From Phycisphaerales bacterium (GTDB taxonomy: Bacteria; Planctomycetota; Phycisphaerae; WQYP01), in assembly GCA_027313145.1 (NCBI GenBank), contig DAHVEJ010000013.1:1-40196 (forward strand): a stretch of 40,196 bases of DNA. Direction: 5' to 3'. This document shows positions 29,549 to 40,175 of this stretch, piece by piece. The translations under genes were made by a program, and so were the position numbers. The stretch's first letter is position 1. Each line of letters opens with the position of its first letter. Below the pieces are notes generated by a model, which searched no databases, had not been told where the DNA came from, and was given only the letters and a program-made list of their open reading frames with translations.

Positions 29549-30274
29549 CTACCGGTCTTCGCGAACTTCTTCGGCCTCCGCTATGCACACCAGGTCGTGC
29601 GGCTTACGAATCAGAATTTTGCGCTTCTCCAAGGTAATGATTTTCTGTCGTTGCCATTGATTGAGCAATCGGCTTACGGTGTACAGTGTTGTGCCCGTCA
29701 TTTGCGCCAGATCTTGCCTTGAAAGCCGAATATCCAACAAAATGCCTTCAGTGGCGCGGCGTCCGGCTTGTTGCGTTAACCGCAGAATAGCGTGCGCGAT
29801 GCGCTGTCGCACTTGTTGGGTGGCCAGTTCCACACAGCGCTGTTGTAATTCTTCAATGCGCGCCACCATCAGACGCATGGCGTTGAACCCTATCACGGGG
29901 TAAAGTGTGATCAGTTTCTGCATCGTGCCGGTATTCCATGCCAGCAGCCGCGACTCACTTAGCGCGTGCGCCGTGATGGGATAGGTCAGGCCGCCGACTG
30001 CTGCCATGCCGCCAATCATCTGGCCAGGGCCAATGACTCGGTGCAATATCTCGTGCCCATCGGCTGTAATTTCAGACACGCGAATCTGTCCTCCAGCCAA
30101 CACATACAGTGTCGTGGCGGCGGTCCGCTGTCGGATCAGTAAAGTTTTTGCTTTTACCGTACGCAATTCGGCCCGACCCGCGACAGTCCGCAACTGCTCC
30201 GTCGTCAGCGATACGAATAAGGGCACATGGCGCAAAATACCCATCACAGATGCTATGTCCGTTTCGGCAACCAT
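29549..30274 (-). CDS. Crp/Fnr-family transcriptional regulator
   Basis: cNMP-binding-like domain plus HTH LSRQDLAQMTGTTLYTVSRLLNQWQRQKIITLEKRKILI. Confidence 0.9.
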   Translation of the reverse strand: MVAETDIASVMGILRHVPLFVSLTTEQLRTVAGRAELRTVKAKTLLIRQRTAATTLYVLAGGQIRVSEITADGHEILHRVIGPGQMIGGMAAVGGLTYPITAHALSESRLLAWNTGTMQKLITLYPVIGFNAMRLMVARIEELQQRCVELATQQVRQRIAHAILRLTQQAGRRATEGILLDIRLSRQDLAQMTGTTLYTVSRLLNQWQRQKIITLEKRKILIRKPHDLVCIAEAEEVREDR

Positions 30275-30439
30275 CTAGGTGATAATACTGCCGACACCGA
30301 AAAAACGCGACGAAAATAAAAAATAGGTAAGGCCCCGCAATTTCCATCGATATCGCAGCATCCGGTTGATTTTACGGGGTATAACGTGTACGCCGCGGTG
30401 TGTTTCCTCCGTATAGCCGGATGCGCGCCATGAAAAAGT

Positions 30440-30453
30440 TTGCTCTGGAGCAA
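30440..30453. promoter_or_regulatory. predicted Fnr/Dnr-type operator TTGCT-CTGG-AGCAA
   Basis: Lies inside a 16-bp palindrome TTTGCTC-TG-GAGCAAA (30439-30454); centre ~29 bp upstream of a CATAAT/TAATAT -10 element. Confidence 0.6.
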
Positions 30454-30487
30454 AGTGGCATTTCGTTAAGCGGACATAATATCAGTC

Positions 30488-30775
30488 ATGAATGTGACCG
30501 GATACGCGTGTGATATGAAACCCATGGAAAAGCGAAACATTGGAGATTTGACGATCCGGGAGTTGCTGACTCGCTGGCCGGAAATGACACGCGTGTTTTT
30601 GGACATGCGCATGTCATGTGTCGGGTGTCCAATTTCTAAATTTGAAACCGTCCGGGATGCGGCGCGAAATTACGGTCGCGATCCGGAAATATTTCTGAAG
30701 CTTCTGGAGCATTGTGGCCGTTCTCGACGAAGGCTCGGGTGGCGCAAGGAAACTGTGGTCCAGAGACGGTATTGA
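30488..30775 (+). CDS. DUF1858 domain protein
   Basis: IGDLTIRELLTRWPEMTRVFLDMRMSCVGCPISKFETVRDAARNYGRDPEIFLKLLEHC; start may be the internal Met at 30524. Confidence 0.82.
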   Translation: MNVTGYACDMKPMEKRNIGDLTIRELLTRWPEMTRVFLDMRMSCVGCPISKFETVRDAARNYGRDPEIFLKLLEHCGRSRRRLGWRKETVVQRRY

Positions 30776-30783
30776 GGCGGTCT

Positions 30784-31407
30784 ATGTCAATCGTTCTTAC
30801 GGCAAAGGCGGCGGATCAACTCATCAAAGTGATGGGTGAACAAGGACTGGATCCGGCTCGCGCTTATCTGCGCGTCACCTACCATCCACGGGCGCACTAC
30901 CAGCAGCGCTGCAGCATTGAACTCAAAGAAGACGATGGCCGGGTTTCCGAGACGGACCAGGTTCTTGAATCGTCAGGCATTCAGGTGCGCAGTGATCGTA
31001 AAAGCTATCACTATGTAAAAGGCATCACGCTGGATTATCACGATGCGCCGGGCGCACAGGGCTTTACCATCACCAGACCGCCGTCAAAATGGCCGGCTAA
31101 GGAACCATTTGCTACACCATGGATACACGAGGCGCTGCGCACCGTCATTGATCCGGAAATCGGGCTGAATATCGCTGATCTAGGGCTGATTTATGAAACC
31201 CGTCTCGACGCTTCCACCGTCACGGTGATCATGACCATGACGACTCCCGCATGCCCTATGGCTGAAATGATTGTAACGGATATAAAATCCAGTCTTAAAC
31301 AGCCATCACGGGAAATTAGCTCTGTAAATGTTGAGGTGGTTTGGGAGCCGCCCTGGACCCCGGAAATGGTTTCTGACCAGGGGCGGGACCAAATGGGTTG
31401 GCGATAG
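30784..31407 (+). CDS. HesB/IscA-like domain fused to MIP18/DUF59 (Fe-S assembly) domain
   Basis: N-terminal VLTAKAADQLIKVMGEQGLDPARAYLRVTYHP; C-terminal EALRTVIDPEIGLNIADLGLIYETRLDASTVTVIMTMTTPACPMAEMI. Confidence 0.85.
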   Translation: MSIVLTAKAADQLIKVMGEQGLDPARAYLRVTYHPRAHYQQRCSIELKEDDGRVSETDQVLESSGIQVRSDRKSYHYVKGITLDYHDAPGAQGFTITRPPSKWPAKEPFATPWIHEALRTVIDPEIGLNIADLGLIYETRLDASTVTVIMTMTTPACPMAEMIVTDIKSSLKQPSREISSVNVEVVWEPPWTPEMVSDQGRDQMGWR

Positions 31408-31427
31408 AAATTATATGGGCTGCACCG

Positions 31428-31470
31428 GTCCGGGTGATGTCAACCCGGACGGAACGGCGCGGCTTTTTTT
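31428..31470 (+). terminator. intra-cluster hairpin followed by T7 run
   Basis: GTCCGGGT-GATGTCA-ACCCGGAC (31428-31450), TTTTTTT at 31464-31470. Confidence 0.35.
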
Positions 31471-31482
31471 AGGAGCACCACT

Positions 31483-31719
31483 ATGAGTGACTCAGTGACT
31501 ATTATCGATGTGCGGACGATGCCGCCGCGCGAACGACATCCGCTGATTTTTCAAACCTTTGAAAAACTGGGGACCGGGAAATGGTTTTATCTGGTCAACG
31601 ACCATGATCCAAAACCGCTGCACTATCAGTTTCAGGCCGAGCATCCCGGCGCGTTTACCTGGCAGTATGTGGACCAGGGGCCGGAGGTGTGGAAGGTTCG
31701 GATCGGTAAAACAAGTTAA
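31483..31719 (+). CDS. DUF2249 domain protein
   Basis: VTIIDVRTMPPRERHPLIFQTFEKLGTGKWFYLVNDHDPKPLHYQFQAEHPGAFTWQYVDQGPEVWKVRI. Confidence 0.9.
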   Translation: MSDSVTIIDVRTMPPRERHPLIFQTFEKLGTGKWFYLVNDHDPKPLHYQFQAEHPGAFTWQYVDQGPEVWKVRIGKTS

Positions 31720-31729
31720 CCGTCGCGCC

Positions 31730-31767
31730 GGCGGGCTGCCGAGTTACCCTCGTAACGGCGGCCCGCC
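31730..31767 (+). terminator. long hairpin after the DUF2249 gene
   Basis: GGCGGGCTGCC-ga-GTTAC-CCTC-GTAAC-GGCGGCCCGCC, followed by CTTATT. Confidence 0.5.
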
Positions 31768-31811
31768 CTTATTAAGACATTTTATTTCGGCTCAGGGCAT
31801 TGGACTTTATC

Positions 31812-32207
31812 ATGATTACAAAAAACATAGAAAGTCTCTCAGCTTTCCGCGAGGATCACTACAACGCCGTGCCACTGGGCGGCAGCGGAAATTGCAAGGT
31901 GATGCTGGTATGTCTGGAATCAGGCCAGTTTATTCCCGTTCATCAACCGGGAATTGACCTTTGTCTGCTTATTCTCGATGGTTATGGAATTCTCTCTGAT
32001 GGAAAAACAGAGCAGAAAGCCGGCCCCGGCGATCTTCTTTTCAGTGTCGCTGGGGAAAGCCGCGGAGTTCTGGCTGAAACGCGCGTGGTGGCACTAGCCA
32101 TCGTAACGCCGCCGCCAGGGCCGCAGGATCACGAAAAAGTTAAACAAATGTTGCGGGAAGGCCGGTGGCGCGATGCGAACGCGGATCAGACTGTCGGACA
32201 TGCATGA
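31812..32207 (+). CDS. cupin domain protein
   Basis: VMLVCLESGQFIPVHQPGIDLCLLILDGYGILSDGKTEQKAGPGDLLFSVAG. Confidence 0.78.
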   Translation: MITKNIESLSAFREDHYNAVPLGGSGNCKVMLVCLESGQFIPVHQPGIDLCLLILDGYGILSDGKTEQKAGPGDLLFSVAGESRGVLAETRVVALAIVTPPPGPQDHEKVKQMLREGRWRDANADQTVGHA

Positions 32208-33366
32208 CCAGCACAGGCCTGCCTCGGCTGCTGGAAAAGCGTGGCGGTTCCCATTGCTGGCGGCGGCTATTCTGACGATGGCTTTGGGAATCTGGGGAGG
32301 GCTTGTTCGCATGGGCTGGGCATGGCCCGCGCCGCCCCAGGCCGTTGTGGACCACGGCGCGCTTATGATCGGCGGCTTCTTGGGCACACTGCTTGGCATG
32401 GAGCGGGCTGTGGCCCTGGGATGGAGATGGTGTTACGCCGGACCGACGGCCAGCGCCGCCGGTGCATTTCTGCTGCTCGCCGGGTATCCGACTTTGCTGG
32501 GGGAGAGTCTAATACTGGCGGCAAGTATGGTCATGGTGCTGGATTTCGTGTTTATTATTCGGCGGCAAGCGGCGATATTTACGCTGGTTATGGCGGGCGG
32601 CGCGGCGGCGTGGGCCATCGGAAATATTCTTTGGCTGATCGGCATACCGATTTATGAAATGGTGTTCTGGTGGATGGGGTTCCTAGTATTGACCATTGTC
32701 GGAGAGCGGTTGGAATTAAGTCGCCTGTTGCCGCAGTCAAAGAGAAAGCGGCATACATTCCTGGCAGCGGCGGGGTTGTTCACGCTCGGGATGCTCGCCA
32801 CGCTGGCCTTTCCGGGACTCGGAGAGTGCATCGCGGGGATTGGATTGCTGGCACTGGCGGTGTGGCTCTTGGTGTATGACGTGACGCGCCATACCGTGCG
32901 GCAACATGGTTTGCCCCGGTTTATTGCTGTCTGCCTGTTGACCGGATATTTCTGGCTGGGGGTTGGTGGGATTCTGACGGTGATTTATGCGGGTATCCTT
33001 CCCATATTGCAGGGACATGCCTGGTTGCGCACTGCGTTGGGTCCTGGGCTTGCCTACGATGCCATCTTGCATGCGGTATTCCTCGGATTTGTTTTCGGCA
33101 TGATCTTTGGTCATGCTCCGATTATCTTCCCCGCGGTGCTTAGTGTGCGAACGCAATTTAGCCGACGTTTCTATCTACATCTGTTGTTATTGGAAGGCTC
33201 GGTTGCATGGCGTATCATCGGCGACATCGGCGGCGGGTGGTCGATACGTCAATCGGCTGGATTAATAAATGGAATTGCAATACTTCTGTTTCTTGCTAAT
33301 ACTGTTACATCAGTCAGGCGAAAAGCGGCAGCGCCCGCTGGTGCGCCGGTCGGGAGTACGCCATGA
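32200..33366 (+). CDS. NnrS-like multi-TM membrane protein
   Basis: About 12 TM; DHGALMIGGFLGTLLGMERAVAL and YDAILHAVFLGFVFGMIFGHAPIIFPAVL resemble NnrS-family His-containing helices. Confidence 0.65.
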   Translation: MHDQHRPASAAGKAWRFPLLAAAILTMALGIWGGLVRMGWAWPAPPQAVVDHGALMIGGFLGTLLGMERAVALGWRWCYAGPTASAAGAFLLLAGYPTLLGESLILAASMVMVLDFVFIIRRQAAIFTLVMAGGAAAWAIGNILWLIGIPIYEMVFWWMGFLVLTIVGERLELSRLLPQSKRKRHTFLAAAGLFTLGMLATLAFPGLGECIAGIGLLALAVWLLVYDVTRHTVRQHGLPRFIAVCLLTGYFWLGVGGILTVIYAGILPILQGHAWLRTALGPGLAYDAILHAVFLGFVFGMIFGHAPIIFPAVLSVRTQFSRRFYLHLLLLEGSVAWRIIGDIGGGWSIRQSAGLINGIAILLFLANTVTSVRRKAAAPAGAPVGSTP

Positions 33367-33890
33367 GTGTAGCTGTAAAACTACTTGTGATGTTTCTCGT
33401 GTTTGCGAGTGCCGCGATAGCCATTTTTCTGGCTGTAGCTTACTCAACCCATCTTCCGGTAAGTGAGCAACATGATGTACAGCAGCACGGGTATGCGATC
33501 CGGGGCCGCTGGTTTCTGGCCCTCGTGCTTTTTCTCATTGCATCTTTTGCCGCATCTATACCTTTTTATCCGTACATGTCGGCCACTGCGGCTCTTGCGC
33601 CCGCCCGAAAAGTTCCGGTCATTGCCGAGCAATACGCCTTTATCATGCCCTCGCGTCTGCCGGTGGACAAACCGATTATTTTTGAGGTAACATCACGCGA
33701 CGTTAACCACGATTTTGGAATTTACAATCCGCAGGGGCATCTGATTGCGCAGGTGCAGGCCATGCCGGATTACACGAATTATTTGCGCGTTATATTTCAC
33801 GCACCGGGACAATACACGGCGCGATGCCTGGAATACTGCGGTGTCGGCCATGCGATTATGGCGAAGACCTTCACCGTAGGAGGCAAGTGA
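33363..33890 (+). CDS. heme-copper oxidase subunit II with CuA site
   Basis: RDVNHDFGIYNPQG and CLEYCGVGHAIM CuA ligand set; overlaps the upstream gene by ATGA. Confidence 0.88.
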   Translation: MSVAVKLLVMFLVFASAAIAIFLAVAYSTHLPVSEQHDVQQHGYAIRGRWFLALVLFLIASFAASIPFYPYMSATAALAPARKVPVIAEQYAFIMPSRLPVDKPIIFEVTSRDVNHDFGIYNPQGHLIAQVQAMPDYTNYLRVIFHAPGQYTARCLEYCGVGHAIMAKTFTVGGK

Positions 33891-33892
33891 CG

Positions 33893-35368
33893 ATGCTAAC
33901 GTCTGACAATACCAGCCGCCGGGTGATGGCATTATACATGGGCACGGGCTTGGCCTTGACCGCCCTGATGATGTTCGCGGGCTTAATGCTGCGCGCATCG
34001 CAGGCAGGATGGATGCCCATGTCGCCGGGACAGTTCTACGCGGTGCTGACCTTGCACGGCGCGGTCGTGATTGTCGCGTTGATGCTCTGCGGCATGGGAG
34101 GATTGTGGTTTTTAATGCGGCGACAGACAAGTTTGAGCGCCGCCACTACGCTAATTACCTACGCGTGCATCGCCGCCGGGGCTGTGGCTGTGATTGCCGC
34201 AACATTATTTGGCGGATTCGCCGGGCTTTACACCTTCCTGGCACCGTTACCTTTTCACGGTTCATGGCCGTACTGGTCAACGGGGGCTTTTCTGGTTGGC
34301 ATGACCCTGATCACCATTGGCTGGATGGCCTGGTGCATGCAGATGCTTGGTGCCGTGTTGCGGGCCTACGGTGGGGCCCTTGGCGCGCTGGCATGGGACT
34401 TTGTATGGCATCGGAAAGCTTTTGATGCGTCTGGCAAACCGCTTCCTCCGCCTGAAGCCTTCCCGGCACTGATGGCTGGTTTTGACGGAATGCTGGCGGG
34501 GATGAGCGCCATGCTTCTGGGCGTTGCACTGGTTGTCCGCTGGCTTGACGCACGCGTGCTTATCAATCCACTTTGGGCCAAGAATCTGACTTATTTTTTT
34601 GCCCACACGTACGCCAATCTCATTATCTACATGCTCGCCGCTTTAATTTATGTCGGCCTGCCATACGCCACGGGTCGAAAATACCATACCTCCACGGCGC
34701 TGGTTGTCGGATGGTGGTGTTCCATGCTCTTGACGTTGACCAATTATTTTCATCATCTTTACATGGATTTTGTTCAGCCCGGCCCGTTTCAGTACCTTGG
34801 CGAATTATCCAGCTACCTAAGTGCGGTTCCGGTCACCGTTGTCACCATATTCAGTGCATTGATGCTGGTGTGGCGTTCCGGCATGAAATGGACGCTGGGG
34901 GCAATTTTCATGTATACGGGGTTGATCGGCTGGGTGGTCGGCGGTATTGGGGCGGAAATTGACGCCACGGTGCCGTTTAATGTGCATCTGCATAATACGC
35001 TCTGGGTGCCCGCGCATTTTCATACTTATCTTGTAGGCGGATGTGTTCTCTTTGCGGTGGGCTGGGTATTTCTGTGCTTGGAGTCGCGCAGCATGCGACG
35101 CACGGGTGCTTTACTCCGATGGCTGATCGGTCTGTTGACTTTCGGCGGAATGGCTGTGTTTTTGATGGGATTTTATTGCGCTGGAGCCTACGGGGTACCA
35201 AGGCGCTATGCGATTGAACCGCCGCCGGGGCCGGAATTGGCTAAAATTGCGTCCATCGGAGCGACGGTGATGATCATTGGATTTGCGCTGGCATTTGCCG
35301 AGGGCGTTCGCCTTCGCTTTGGCTATCCAGACCAGGAGGGGGATATGCGCATTGAGCAAGGAGGTTGA
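33893..35368 (+). CDS. heme-copper oxidase superfamily subunit I (B-type-like) lacking the active-site Tyr; candidate NO reductase
   Basis: Ligands H55 (TLHGAVV), H238 (FAHTYANL), H287/H288 (YFHHLY), H375/H377 (VPAHFHTYL); Asn242 at the Tyr position; start preceded by GGAGG. Confidence 0.85.
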   Translation: MLTSDNTSRRVMALYMGTGLALTALMMFAGLMLRASQAGWMPMSPGQFYAVLTLHGAVVIVALMLCGMGGLWFLMRRQTSLSAATTLITYACIAAGAVAVIAATLFGGFAGLYTFLAPLPFHGSWPYWSTGAFLVGMTLITIGWMAWCMQMLGAVLRAYGGALGALAWDFVWHRKAFDASGKPLPPPEAFPALMAGFDGMLAGMSAMLLGVALVVRWLDARVLINPLWAKNLTYFFAHTYANLIIYMLAALIYVGLPYATGRKYHTSTALVVGWWCSMLLTLTNYFHHLYMDFVQPGPFQYLGELSSYLSAVPVTVVTIFSALMLVWRSGMKWTLGAIFMYTGLIGWVVGGIGAEIDATVPFNVHLHNTLWVPAHFHTYLVGGCVLFAVGWVFLCLESRSMRRTGALLRWLIGLLTFGGMAVFLMGFYCAGAYGVPRRYAIEPPPGPELAKIASIGATVMIIGFALAFAEGVRLRFGYPDQEGDMRIEQGG

Positions 35369-35371
35369 GGT

Positions 35372-36280
35372 ATGACGGACCATGTAGAACAACCAAGCCG
35401 CGTACGCATTGTAATGGGGGTTATCGGTGCCACAATCGCCCTTGGTGGCGTGGTTGCCCCGCTGATTTCTCATGAGATGACCACCATTGCCGTGCATCAT
35501 CTGCTCCATGCCGGTATGGCTGCCGGTGCCGGTCTGCTGGCCCTTGCCATCGCTCCGGTGCGCACCGCCCGGGAGCGAAGTGCCTGGATATGGCCGGCGG
35601 TTATTGCTCCGGCGATCGGGCTGTTGCTGATGTGGCCATCGGAATACGCATATCTCATGTCTCATCGCTGGCTGCATCTCCTGGATCATTTGAGCATCGC
35701 CCTGATGACATTTCTGGCGGTATATGCGGCACAGGCCTATGTGCGTGGGCTGGGGTGGCTGATGCTCGTATTAGTGGTGGCGATGGATGCCGCCTGCGCC
35801 GGCGGATTTGGTGTATCGCCAGGGCCAAGCTTTCTGCTGCGTCCGGTGCGGCGGATTCCCGGTGTAGTGGTGGCTTCCAACGCCGCAACCGCTGGTGCCG
35901 CACAGAAAATAACGACGCTGCATGCCCTTGGAGCGAAACTCTACAGCACCATGGGGTGCAGCGGCTGCCACAGCGTTGATGGTTCCAAAGGCATCGGGCC
36001 AAGCTGGGAAAATCTCGCCGGCTATCCACAGAAATTGTCTAACGGTAAAACCATGATTGCTGACTACTCATTTCTCAGGACCATGATCCTTGATCCGGGA
36101 AAAATGGATCTGGCTGGTTATCCGGCAGGTGTTATGCCCGGTACGTATAAAGTCATGCTCACCGGCGCGAAACATCCGCATGAGGTACAGCTCAACGCCA
36201 TTATCTGGTATATTAATACGCTTAGTAATAAGGCCGGAAAAGCCAGCGAACCGCCGGTACCCGACCGGCTGGCCAAATGA
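35372..36280 (+). CDS. multi-TM domain fused to a C-terminal class I cytochrome c
   Basis: N-terminal His-containing TM helices; GAKLYSTMGCSGCHSVDGSKGIGPSWENLAG...GVMPGTYKVM. Confidence 0.85.
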   Translation: MTDHVEQPSRVRIVMGVIGATIALGGVVAPLISHEMTTIAVHHLLHAGMAAGAGLLALAIAPVRTARERSAWIWPAVIAPAIGLLLMWPSEYAYLMSHRWLHLLDHLSIALMTFLAVYAAQAYVRGLGWLMLVLVVAMDAACAGGFGVSPGPSFLLRPVRRIPGVVVASNAATAGAAQKITTLHALGAKLYSTMGCSGCHSVDGSKGIGPSWENLAGYPQKLSNGKTMIADYSFLRTMILDPGKMDLAGYPAGVMPGTYKVMLTGAKHPHEVQLNAIIWYINTLSNKAGKASEPPVPDRLAK

Positions 36281-36336
36281 TGGGCCACCGCTGAATATCC
36301 GCTGCTGATGCTGTAACGGTCTCAAAGGAGTGCTCC

Positions 36337-36729
36337 ATGATGGAAGACGCGGAAAATCAACGTTTAAGGCCCCATCCCGAGGTTCGCTTCGCGGAACCCC
36401 CGGCACCCGTGGATTTACACGCGCTGGCGGCATCCTTGCGGGCGGAGCCTAATTCCGGCGAACGGGGCCATCGGCAGGAAACCATCTTTAAACATGGTAA
36501 TGTGACTATCGCCTTATTTGTGTTTGACCAGTTTTCACATCTGCCGGAACATACCGCGCAGGGTGTCGTCACCATGCAGGTGCTGAAGGGCTGGATGATA
36601 ATCAGCGCTGGGACTGCGGAGCATGAACTCAGGGCCGGACAGATGCTGGTTTTGGACTCAGGTGTTCGCCATGCCCTCAAGGCGGAAGAGGAAAGCGAAG
36701 TTCTGGTGAGCGTCCATCTTGGGTCATAA
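36337..36729 (+). CDS. cupin domain protein
   Basis: GNVTIALFVFDQFSHLPEHTAQGVVTMQVLKGWMIISAGTAEHELRAGQMLVLDSGVRHAL. Confidence 0.82.
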   Translation: MMEDAENQRLRPHPEVRFAEPPAPVDLHALAASLRAEPNSGERGHRQETIFKHGNVTIALFVFDQFSHLPEHTAQGVVTMQVLKGWMIISAGTAEHELRAGQMLVLDSGVRHALKAEEESEVLVSVHLGS

Positions 36730-37311
36730 TCCCGGTCGCCGCCGCCGCGAACACTGACTGCCTTCGCGGCCCGGATTGGCGGCACGGCGGGAGCGCATCT
36801 GCTCTCCAATGCCAATAAGTGTTTCTCGGCGCAGCAGCCTGGCCGCCAGAGGAAATATGTCCTGCTCTTCCATCGCAATGTGCGGCGTGTATATACGGAT
36901 AAGCGATTCAACGGTGCGACGAAATTCCTCTTGGTCCTCATCAATCATCTTCCCGCTTTTCAGCCAAGCCTCGCCGAGTTCATCAATCCGATGATGCAGT
37001 TTTTCCGCTTCCGCGTGTTCTTCGGCCAACTGGCGCATGCGCGTCACAGCCTCGGTCGCCGCAATATCTCCGCTGGCGGCTAACGCCGGAAACAGCGAGG
37101 CCTCTTCATCCTCATTATGTCGGGGGCCGGCGAGCTTGAAATAATCCAAAGCGGTTCGTAGAGCGGCGCGATGTTGCACATCGAGTGCACCGGTGCGTCC
37201 GATTTTTTCAAGCGCAAGTAGAAATCGCTCGATTCTCCGGTGGCAGTCCATCATCAATTCAATGGGCTGGCTGAAATCCGCCTGGGGTTTATCACCAATG
37301 TTGACGGGCAT
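36724..37311 (-). CDS. hemerythrin HHE domain protein
   Basis: MMDCHRRIERFLLALEKI, RHNEDEEASLFPAL, EEHAEAEKLHHRIDEL, YTPHIAMEEQDIFPLA. Confidence 0.9.
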   Translation of the reverse strand: MPVNIGDKPQADFSQPIELMMDCHRRIERFLLALEKIGRTGALDVQHRAALRTALDYFKLAGPRHNEDEEASLFPALAASGDIAATEAVTRMRQLAEEHAEAEKLHHRIDELGEAWLKSGKMIDEDQEEFRRTVESLIRIYTPHIAMEEQDIFPLAARLLRRETLIGIGEQMRSRRAANPGREGSQCSRRRRPGL

Positions 37312-37335: not shown

Positions 37336-37746
37336 CTACAGCAGGGCGACACCGTTGGTCTTGGCCGCCTTTTTCAGTGCTTCATCATCTGTTGCCAGAG
37401 GAATACCAACGCGCATCGCAAGTTCCAGATAGGCGGCATCGTAGCTGGTCAGACGGCATGTGTTGGCCAAATGCAATATGTCGTTCCAAGCGAGGCTGTG
37501 GGTTTCCGGGTCAACATGAATTGAAAATGCGTCAAACATTCGGATAAAGGCGGTCCGCTTTGTGGAACTGATACGTCCGGATTTTGTTGCAATCGCCAGC
37601 ACGTTGGCGACTTCCAACGACCAATGTCCCGGCACGATCGCGGGCTGGCGTGCTAATTTTTCAGGCAATGCTTCCGTTCGCGGCGTGCATTGGTCATCAA
37701 AGCACCAGGCCATGGTCATAAATGTATCATAAACCCATTCCATCAC
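37336..37746 (-). CDS. PIN-domain toxin (VapC-like)
   Basis: Acidic residues and C-terminus TSYDAAYLELAMRVGIPLATDDEALKKAAKTNGVALL. Confidence 0.88.
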   Translation of the reverse strand: MMEWVYDTFMTMAWCFDDQCTPRTEALPEKLARQPAIVPGHWSLEVANVLAIATKSGRISSTKRTAFIRMFDAFSIHVDPETHSLAWNDILHLANTCRLTSYDAAYLELAMRVGIPLATDDEALKKAAKTNGVALL

Positions 37747-37985
37747 GGGCGTCCTTGGTCGATGAGGTCCTGAATTTTCAGGCCGCCAAGGGTGACACCT
37801 TTGCGGGCCTTTCGCCCCTGGGCAATAGCCGTGGCGGCGTCCGGCCGGCCTGCGGCAGGGCTGATCGCCGAGAGTATTGCCACGTCGCGACCATGTCGGG
37901 TGATGACTATGCTTTCGCCGGCCTCAACTTGATCCAAAAGTCGCGGCAAATGCGTTTTCGCCTCATGCGCTCCAACCTTAACCAT
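37743..37985 (-). CDS. Phd/YefM-type antitoxin (VapB-like)
   Basis: VKVGAHEAKTHLPRLLDQVEAGESIVITRHGRDVAIL; overlaps the toxin gene. Confidence 0.9.
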   Translation of the reverse strand: MVKVGAHEAKTHLPRLLDQVEAGESIVITRHGRDVAILSAISPAAGRPDAATAIAQGRKARKGVTLGGLKIQDLIDQGRP

Positions 37986-38073: not shown

Positions 38074-38574
38074 TCACTTTCGTGGGCCGCGACCCCGAAT
38101 GCGCAGGCCGGGACGGCGTTTTTCAATTTCCGCTGTCGCTTTTCCAACGGCGTTTAGTTGCCCGGGCGTGGCCCGATCCTGTATAGCGCCAAACAGCACA
38201 CGCTCTTCCCAGCGGATGTGGTCACGAAGTTCTCGGCCAAGTGCCGCGCACCAGGACTCCGCGGGCGGCTCGTCAGCGCTTCGCCGAAGTCCCGCCGCAA
38301 CAAGATTTCGTATGCTGCCGTGCTCGCGGAGCATTTGCTTGATTTCCGGTTCGAGCATCAGTGGAATAAGTAATTGCTCTTCCTCACGAAAGTGATCGGC
38401 GATCTCGGCGTTCCAGCATCGCCGAAAATACGCCGCCGCCGAGGTTCTCGCTGCGTCGTCCGCATTTGCCGCCTTGGTCAGCTCATTGGCCGCTTTCAGG
38501 CCCATAAAATGATCACGGGAAAACGGTTGCAGGCTTTCATCGCGTTGCAAGGGTGGGTGATCAAATTCCCGCAC
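38074..38574 (-). CDS. hemerythrin-like HHE domain protein
   Basis: FSRDHFMGLKAANEL, HFREEEQLLIPLML, LREHGSIRNLVAAGL, RDHIRWEERVLFGAI; GTG start proposed at 38574. Confidence 0.8.
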   Translation of the reverse strand: MREFDHPPLQRDESLQPFSRDHFMGLKAANELTKAANADDAARTSAAAYFRRCWNAEIADHFREEEQLLIPLMLEPEIKQMLREHGSIRNLVAAGLRRSADEPPAESWCAALGRELRDHIRWEERVLFGAIQDRATPGQLNAVGKATAEIEKRRPGLRIRGRGPRK

Positions 38575-38667
38575 GGTCGGTTCCTTTACGCTTAATGTCC
38601 ATGCCGCCAAACGTATGATAGCACGGTAGGCGCGTAGATCGAAAGTAATATTCTGGATAAAAATGTC

Positions 38668-38696
38668 TTGAAATCCATAATATACCGTGATACACT
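38668..38696 (+). promoter_or_regulatory. predicted sigma70 promoter of the scdA-like gene
   Basis: TTGAAA (38668-38673), 17-bp spacer, TACACT (38691-38696). Confidence 0.4.
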
Positions 38697-38748
38697 TATT
38701 CTGTGGGCTGGTGATGCTCCGGCCCGGTTGATGGAAACGAGGTGTCTT

Positions 38749-39450
38749 ATGACAACGGCAACAACCTTGGGTGTGGATGATTCGGTATCCCAATGGGTGG
38801 TGGAACTTCCCGCGCGATCCCGCGTGTTTGAAAAAAACGGAATTGATTATTGTTGTGGCGGCAAGGCAACGCTGCGGCAGGCGTGTGCCAAGCGCCATGT
38901 TAATCCGGAAACGGTGATCGCCGATTTGCTTGCGGCCGGGCATGAGCCCGATCAGAAAGATTGGAGCGCCGCAACCTTAACAGAACTGGCCGATCACATT
39001 GAATCGACGCATCACGCCTGGCTGAAAAGAGAATTGCCGCGTACCGCCATGCTTGTGCATCGCACCTACACGGTCCATGGATTGCATTATCCGTGGTTGA
39101 CAGAACTGAAAACCACCTACGACCGCTTTGCCGCCGAAATGGATGCGCACATGTTCAAGGAGGAACACATCCTTTTTCCGCGTATCCGACTCATTGACGC
39201 CAAACGGACGGATATTGAAGTTGATCAACCCGTGGCCATCATGGAGCACGAGCACGACCGCGCCGGTGCTGATCTGGAAAAACTGCAAAGCCTAAGCAAC
39301 AATTACACCGCCCCAGAAGACGCCTGCAACACGTTTCGCGCCATGCTCGATGCGCTGCGGGAAATTCAAGCCGATACGCACGTGCATGTACATAAGGAGA
39401 ACAACATATTGTTTCCACGGGCTAAGTGCTCTGTCACGTCTAAATATTAG
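38749..39450 (+). CDS. ScdA/YtfE/RIC-type di-iron iron-sulfur cluster repair protein
   Basis: DUF542 RVFEKNGIDYCCGGKATLRQAC plus hemerythrin motifs HIESTHHAWLKREL, HMFKEEHILFPRI, IMEHEHDRAG, HVHKENNILFPRA. Confidence 0.94.
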   Translation: MTTATTLGVDDSVSQWVVELPARSRVFEKNGIDYCCGGKATLRQACAKRHVNPETVIADLLAAGHEPDQKDWSAATLTELADHIESTHHAWLKRELPRTAMLVHRTYTVHGLHYPWLTELKTTYDRFAAEMDAHMFKEEHILFPRIRLIDAKRTDIEVDQPVAIMEHEHDRAGADLEKLQSLSNNYTAPEDACNTFRAMLDALREIQADTHVHVHKENNILFPRAKCSVTSKY

Positions 39451-39611: not shown

Positions 39612-40175
39612 TCATGCGGCAATGGCCTTTCGTATCAGTTGGTGCCGAGCTTGTTGGCGCGGCACGGTAAGAAGCGCGATGGGCTTGGCACGACGCTTGA
39701 CGGCACGCGGTTCATAACGGTCGGGCCGGTTCCCTACGCGGTGGCGGGATACCGCATACAGCAACAGTTCCCACAGGCGCGGCAGATCGCGTGTGGCGGC
39801 GCACTGCAACACCGGGGCGAAGGCATTAATCGTCTGCACTGTTCCGGCAAAGCTTATTTCCCGTGGCTGGCGGCCCGCCGTTTGTGCCGCCTCGGCCATC
39901 ACGGTGCGGATCAGGTTGTAGGCCAGCAGGTGCATCCAGATTTCTTTTCGCACCATCTCCGGCCTCTTGCAACGCAGCACGCTCATGCCCATCGTCTGCT
40001 TGATGGCACGCAAGTCCAATTCCACATGCCAGCGCAGGCGAAAGGCCTCGGCAATTTCCGCCCGGCTGTAAACTTGGGCATCCAACAGCGTGGTCACCAG
40101 CACCACGGAACGCACGCGAAAGCCCCGCTGGCAAACCCGCACGCGAATCTCACGCACCTCCAGTGTATCGGGCAT
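39612..40175 (-). mobile_element. IS4-type transposase, C-terminal part; open toward the window edge
   Basis: YSRAEIAEAFRLRWHVELDLRAIKQTMGMSVLRCKRPEMVRKEIWMHLLAYNLIRTVM (IS4 Y-(2)R-(3)E-(6)K-type region). Confidence 0.85.

Follow-up and report, generated by a model that had tools for sequence, protein, structure and literature searches.

A heme-copper oxidase-type gene of an uncultured planctomycete raises the question of whether an enzyme with asparagine in place of the cross-linked active-site tyrosine reduces NO or O2. The gene lies in the window, the whole stretch of DNA of 40,196 nucleotides that was analyzed. An earlier note on this DNA had read the protein as a CuA-containing, B-family-derived NO reductase.

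Subunit I has asparagine at the place of the cross-linked tyrosine

The gene for subunit I (33893..35368, + strand) translates into 491 amino acids, and the protein matched the Pfam COX1 model at 2e-41. In the alignment, the low-spin heme was assigned to H55 and H377, the high-spin heme to H375, and CuB to H238, H287, and H288. All six columns contained only His across the A- and B-family oxidases aligned, which confirmed the heme and CuB histidines claimed in the earlier note, and these residues together with the COX1 fold place subunit I in the heme-copper oxidoreductase superfamily. Modeling of the active site, which had also been proposed, succeeded in part: the AlphaFold model (12 sequences) had the right overall fold, but the active site was weak, with a pLDDT of about 60, too uncertain for distances.

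Helix VI of subunit I (HTYAN) was aligned without gaps with that of Thermus thermophilus ba3 (HPIVY), and the cross-linked tyrosine was replaced by Asn242, the codon of which (AAT) lies at 34616..34618 (+ strand) by arithmetic from the start codon. This replacement had already been pointed out, and it held in the comparison with ba3 and in the relatives of the protein. Asn242 was invariant in all 13 clade members (the window protein and twelve relatives that are 60–94% identical to it), which were drawn from Planctomycetota, Verrucomicrobiota, and Acidobacteriota, and Asn was also found in homologues from Ruegeria pomeroyi (32% identity) and Thermomicrobium roseum (34%). Because the residue recurs in the whole clade and in two outside homologues, Asn242 is not a sequencing slip. 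The distant homologues from the phyla of the Acidobacteriota and Verrucomicrobiota carriers had Asn wherever the column was readable, except for L120. This member of the wider Asn clade (genome G462, from the phylum of the Acidobacteriota carrier) reads HVTAE, with Glu at the Tyr/Asn place as in cNOR, and shows further motif changes (AHLHLG); it is a natural Asn-to-Glu variant.

In the heme-copper superfamily, the mechanism of O2 reduction depends on the His-Tyr cofactor, which argues against O2 reduction by subunit I, where a cross-linkable tyrosine was found neither in helix VI nor at the cbb3 place. The earlier note had named a cbb3-like relocated tyrosine beforehand as a finding that would contradict its reading. 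This candidate was rejected from the position six residues before the first helix VII His (H287-6), where the window clade has Thr or Ile281 and the R. pomeroyi and T. roseum homologues have Val. An invariant tyrosine, Tyr285, stands two residues before the first helix VII His, and a high-affinity O2 reductase that dispenses with the canonical tyrosine, for example by using Tyr285 as a radical donor, could be proposed on this basis. However, Tyr285 occupies the place of the A-family Trp and not that of the cbb3 Tyr, and we consider such an enzyme unlikely. The precedent in its favor is the sNOR of Nitrosomonas europaea, which is induced by O2 limitation and was interpreted from transcriptomics as a high-affinity O2 reductase (PMC6967387); NO versus O2 as the substrate is still debated for sNOR itself.

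The window clade is most likely a branch of the sNOR-like group

By profile and by fold, the nearest solved structures were ba3 oxidases, and subunit I has B-like residues of the ba3 type (Thr318, Tyr253, Asn368, and Asp292). In the tree, the window clade, the distant homologues, and the T. roseum and R. pomeroyi proteins formed one clade (100/100), which stands apart from the A family, from ba3, and from Gln-bearing eNOR-like proteins. The window clade is a branch of its own within this tree (100/100). B-family descent is consistent with the nearest structures and the B-like residues, and the AU p value for a B-family origin of the whole group was 0.43 in the tree. The alignment and tree that the earlier note had called for thus joined the protein firmly to R. 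pomeroyi and left the B-family origin without comparable support. Of the original reading, the candidacy as an NO reductase stood on the signature, the clade, the CuA partner, and the gene context, and the B-family derivation is retained as consistent.

On the sNOR side of the tree, R. pomeroyi represents the sole genus named in the literature, and it counts as sNOR by genus name only; Silicibacter is the former name of this organism. Asn is listed as the active-site residue of sNOR, including that of Silicibacter, and of CuANOR (Table A4, PMC8756737). Since the Asn observed here is this published sNOR/CuANOR signature, the idea of an Asn enzyme is already known, and the window clade is most likely a new, distinct branch of the described sNOR-like group and not a new kind of enzyme. 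Our literature search yielded no useful report on sNOR in these phyla or on NOR in acid-site Phycisphaerae.

The likeness to sNOR (NorSY of Nitrosomonas; Silicibacter) lies in the Asn at the tyrosine place, in the tree clade common to the window protein and the R. pomeroyi homologue, and in the type II layout, since the window proteins comprise a short, 12-helix subunit I and a two-helix CuA subunit. The differences are the low identity of 32–34% to the R. pomeroyi and T. roseum homologues, the well-supported branch of its own, and the gene in the place of SenC. In the type II qCuANOR of Bacillus azotoformans, 12 helices go together with a subunit II of two helices, and SenC is linked (PMC3475470). 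CuANOR of B. azotoformans (CbaAB; bNOR, type I), an Asn-bearing enzyme that was earlier purified as an NO reductase, belongs to another branch but resembles the window system in its CuA subunit and in Asn for Tyr; compared by description only, it differs in its 13 helices and in a subunit II with a single helix (PMC3475470).

Other groups differ from Asn242 at the tyrosine place. eNOR, likewise a Tyr-less CuA-type NO reductase group, has Gln, and the Gln-bearing branch is separate and joined to ba3; gNOR has Asp (PMC8756737), and cNOR and qNOR have Glu. The ba3-type (B-family) oxygen reductase, to which the nearest structures belong and whose K-path Thr and Tyr are kept in subunit I, retains the cross-linked Tyr and is about 21–25% identical to subunit I. 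Gln at this place, the eNOR signature, was seen in L083 (T. roseum plasmid 379740-381122), L105, and L106, and T. roseum and two Verrucomicrobiota hosts have both Asn-type and Gln-type enzymes. A further sNOR-like gene of the wider clade, L128 (genome G854), adjoins two genes, one for a NorC-like cytochrome and one for a subunit of the cNOR type (HLWVE).

A CuA subunit and a membrane cytochrome c accompany subunit I

Subunit II (33363..33890, + strand) is a cupredoxin of the CuA type that has two membrane helices at its N terminus. It matched Pfam COX2 and contains the motif CLEYCGVGHAIM, and its CuA ligand set (C155, C159, H163, M166, and H116) was full and conserved. sNOR clusters have SenC, and an SCO/SenC gene follows subunit I in R. 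pomeroyi and in most of the distant homologues checked, including most Acidobacteriota ones, whereas no SenC/SCO gene was seen in the window operon. Instead, the gene at this place encodes a membrane-anchored cytochrome c (35372..36280, + strand) with CSGCH at residue 196. Each clade locus that reaches far enough has a cytochrome c gene after subunit I, with the qualification given below for three Verrucomicrobiota loci. In genome G022 (L009 / L132 4543-6990), subunit I and the cytochrome c protein form a single in-frame fusion of 793 residues, counted from the start of subunit I.

Residues 183-298 of the window cytochrome c shared 73% identity with the second heme domain of the CuA subunit (COX2) of the host aa3 oxidase. 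This identity suggests that the cytochrome c passes electrons to CuA as in caa3 and is probably the electron-donor subunit. The presence of a common domain in the O2-reducing aa3 oxidase of the host also speaks for the O2 reductase. The host aa3 CuA subunit (L001 3-1310) itself has two tandem cytochrome c domains. The cluster might even represent a separate, caa3-like family of sNOR-type NO reductases, in which the cytochrome c became a third, integral subunit carrying a membrane anchor of its own by domain exchange with the host aa3 oxidase, a proposal that we regard as possible but doubtful. In L033 (7385-8077), L035 (4416-5021), and L037 (7385-8077), all from Verrucomicrobiota, the ORF after subunit I is shorter and matches the cytochrome c protein partly, and the one scanned, that of L037, gave no Pfam cytochrome c match. 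The heme domain may be missing in this sub-branch, and for these loci the third-subunit reading is weaker. In its membrane part, the window cytochrome c matched T. roseum CtaG over 39 residues (41% identity, pairwise E 3e-5) and gave no Pfam CtaG match; because the match is short and the Pfam match is absent, descent from CtaG is a lead only.

The operon and its NO-stress neighbors

From 30488 to 36729, the genes lie on one strand in the order DUF1858, SufT/IscA-like, DUF2249, small cupin-like, membrane protein, CuA subunit, subunit I, cytochrome c, and cupin-like. The first (30488..30775, +) encodes a DUF1858, hybrid-cluster-protein-associated redox disulfide domain, and it is followed by a SufT/IscA-like iron-sulfur assembly fusion (30712..31407, +), a DUF2249 protein (31483..31719, +; Pfam PF10006, 4.7e-31), and a small protein that is cupin-like by appearance only and had no Pfam match (31800..32207, +). 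The last gene (36337..36729, +) encodes a cupin-like protein that is conserved beside the cytochrome c gene and matched Pfam Cupin_2 below the cut-off. Downstream of the operon are two hemerythrin HHE genes (36724..37311, − strand; 38074..38943, − strand, start uncertain) and a gene for a RIC/ScdA/YtfE-type iron-sulfur repair protein (38668..39450, + strand; TIGR03652 above the cut-off), whose start is uncertain and which overlaps the 38074..38943 ORF. Between the hemerythrin genes, a PIN toxin and Phd/YefM antitoxin pair was seen (37336-37985), and the window ends with a transposase fragment (DDE; 39612-40175).

The labels DUF2249, ScdA/RIC, hemerythrin, and Crp given previously agreed with the domain matches, whereas "NnrS-like" for 32173..33366 (+ strand) had to be abandoned. 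This polytopic membrane protein had no Pfam match even at E 10, and PF05940 (NnrS) matched nowhere in the host genome at E≤1. The family is conserved in the Planctomycetota operon copies that extend that far, and the protein is a candidate for a new NO-related membrane protein. In the other phyla, DUF2249 with hemerythrin, or RIC, lies upstream of the structural genes. NO-stress neighbors (DUF2249, hemerythrin, and RIC) thus recur in loci of Planctomycetota, Verrucomicrobiota, and Acidobacteriota, and they count against the O2 reductase.

A Crp/Fnr-family regulator gene (29549..30274, − strand) is divergent from the operon, and a conserved palindrome, TTTGCTCTGGAGCAAA (30439..30454, + strand), lies between them. 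Its 14-base core, TTGCTCTGGAGCAA, was identical in three further operons with diverged surroundings. Exact copies of the core were found once each in G000, G003, G004, and G012, all of which are carriers, and in no other of the 28 genomes searched; the reversed control pattern, with one mismatch allowed, had no match in G000, G003, and G004 and one in G012. When one mismatch was allowed, the looser form TTGCTNNNNAGCAA was no rarer in the window by itself than expected by chance, and the case for an operator therefore rests on conservation, by which TTTGCTCTGGAGCAAA is probably the Crp/Fnr-type operator of the operon. Three one-mismatch copies of TTGCTCTGGAGCAA, on contigs C210, C264, and C290 of G000, may mark further regulon members. 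Clustering with a Crp/Fnr regulator would also suit a sensor of NO or O2, or a relative that has degenerated and lost catalysis, but conservation across three phyla covers all six metal-binding histidines, all CuA ligands, and the motif for heme c, and this explanation is very improbable.

Host gene content and distribution of the cluster

The host genome has two COX1 genes, that of an aa3 oxidase with Tyr and that of the window subunit I, and accordingly no cNOR or qNOR was found in it. Models of NirK, NirS, and NosZ gave no match in the host genome at E≤1e-3. These absences are provisional because the genome is 93% complete. A dual-function enzyme for NO and O2, acting at low oxygen as a scavenger that tolerates NO, would be compatible with the separate aa3 oxidase of the host and with the NO side activities reported across the superfamily (PMC6967387). 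However, no sequence feature specifically favors a dual function, and we rate it as quite improbable.

The gene cluster was present in three of the eight genomes of the host genus, host included, and the host genome was the only positive one among 392 sampled Planctomycetota. Of 396 genomes from the phylum to which the Acidobacteriota carrier belongs, 10 had a homologue, as did 3 of 388 from the phylum of the Verrucomicrobiota carrier, and the window clade proper was confined in these two samples to the carriers themselves. This patchy distribution fits horizontal spread of the cluster.

Proposed function and significance

We consider it likely, from sequence comparison and gene context, that the genes of the cluster specify a CuA-type, sNOR-like NO reductase that serves mainly for NO detoxification. 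The NO reductase reading is based on the invariant Asn242, the 100/100 clade with R. pomeroyi, the published Asn signature, and the NO reductase activity of a purified Asn-bearing CuANOR; on the conserved CuA ligands, the cytochrome c gene or fusion, and the 73% identical COX2-like heme domain; and on the NO-stress neighbors, the cNOR-type pair beside L128, the separate Tyr-bearing aa3 oxidase, and the unique conserved box. Detoxification is likelier than denitrification, given that the aa3 oxidase of the host is separate and that NirS, NirK, NosZ, cNOR, and qNOR all went undetected. With no nitrite reductase detected, which counts against the NO reductase reading, NO would have to come from an external or some other source.

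In the proposed mechanism, NO or nitrosative stress would act through the Crp/Fnr regulator on the operon. Electrons would pass from the cytochrome c to CuA, to the low-spin heme (H55/H377), and to the heme-CuB center (H375; H238/H287/H288), where 2 NO would be reduced to N2O without a tyrosyl radical, and protons would probably enter via a remnant ba3-type K-path (Tyr253 and Thr318). The RIC, hemerythrin, and iron-sulfur assembly neighbors may repair or buffer NO damage.

New in the window branch are the cytochrome c gene in the place of SenC, the conserved palindrome, and the recurrent NO-stress neighbors. The invariant Asn, the cytochrome fusion, and the single conserved operator make this branch a clean case for the NO-versus-O2 question of sNOR-type enzymes. 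Common pipelines label Tyr-less CuA-type NO reductases as cytochrome c oxidases (PMC11388526) and thereby miss NO consumption and N2O production. The window branch widens this annotation blind spot in Planctomycetota, Verrucomicrobiota, and Acidobacteriota.
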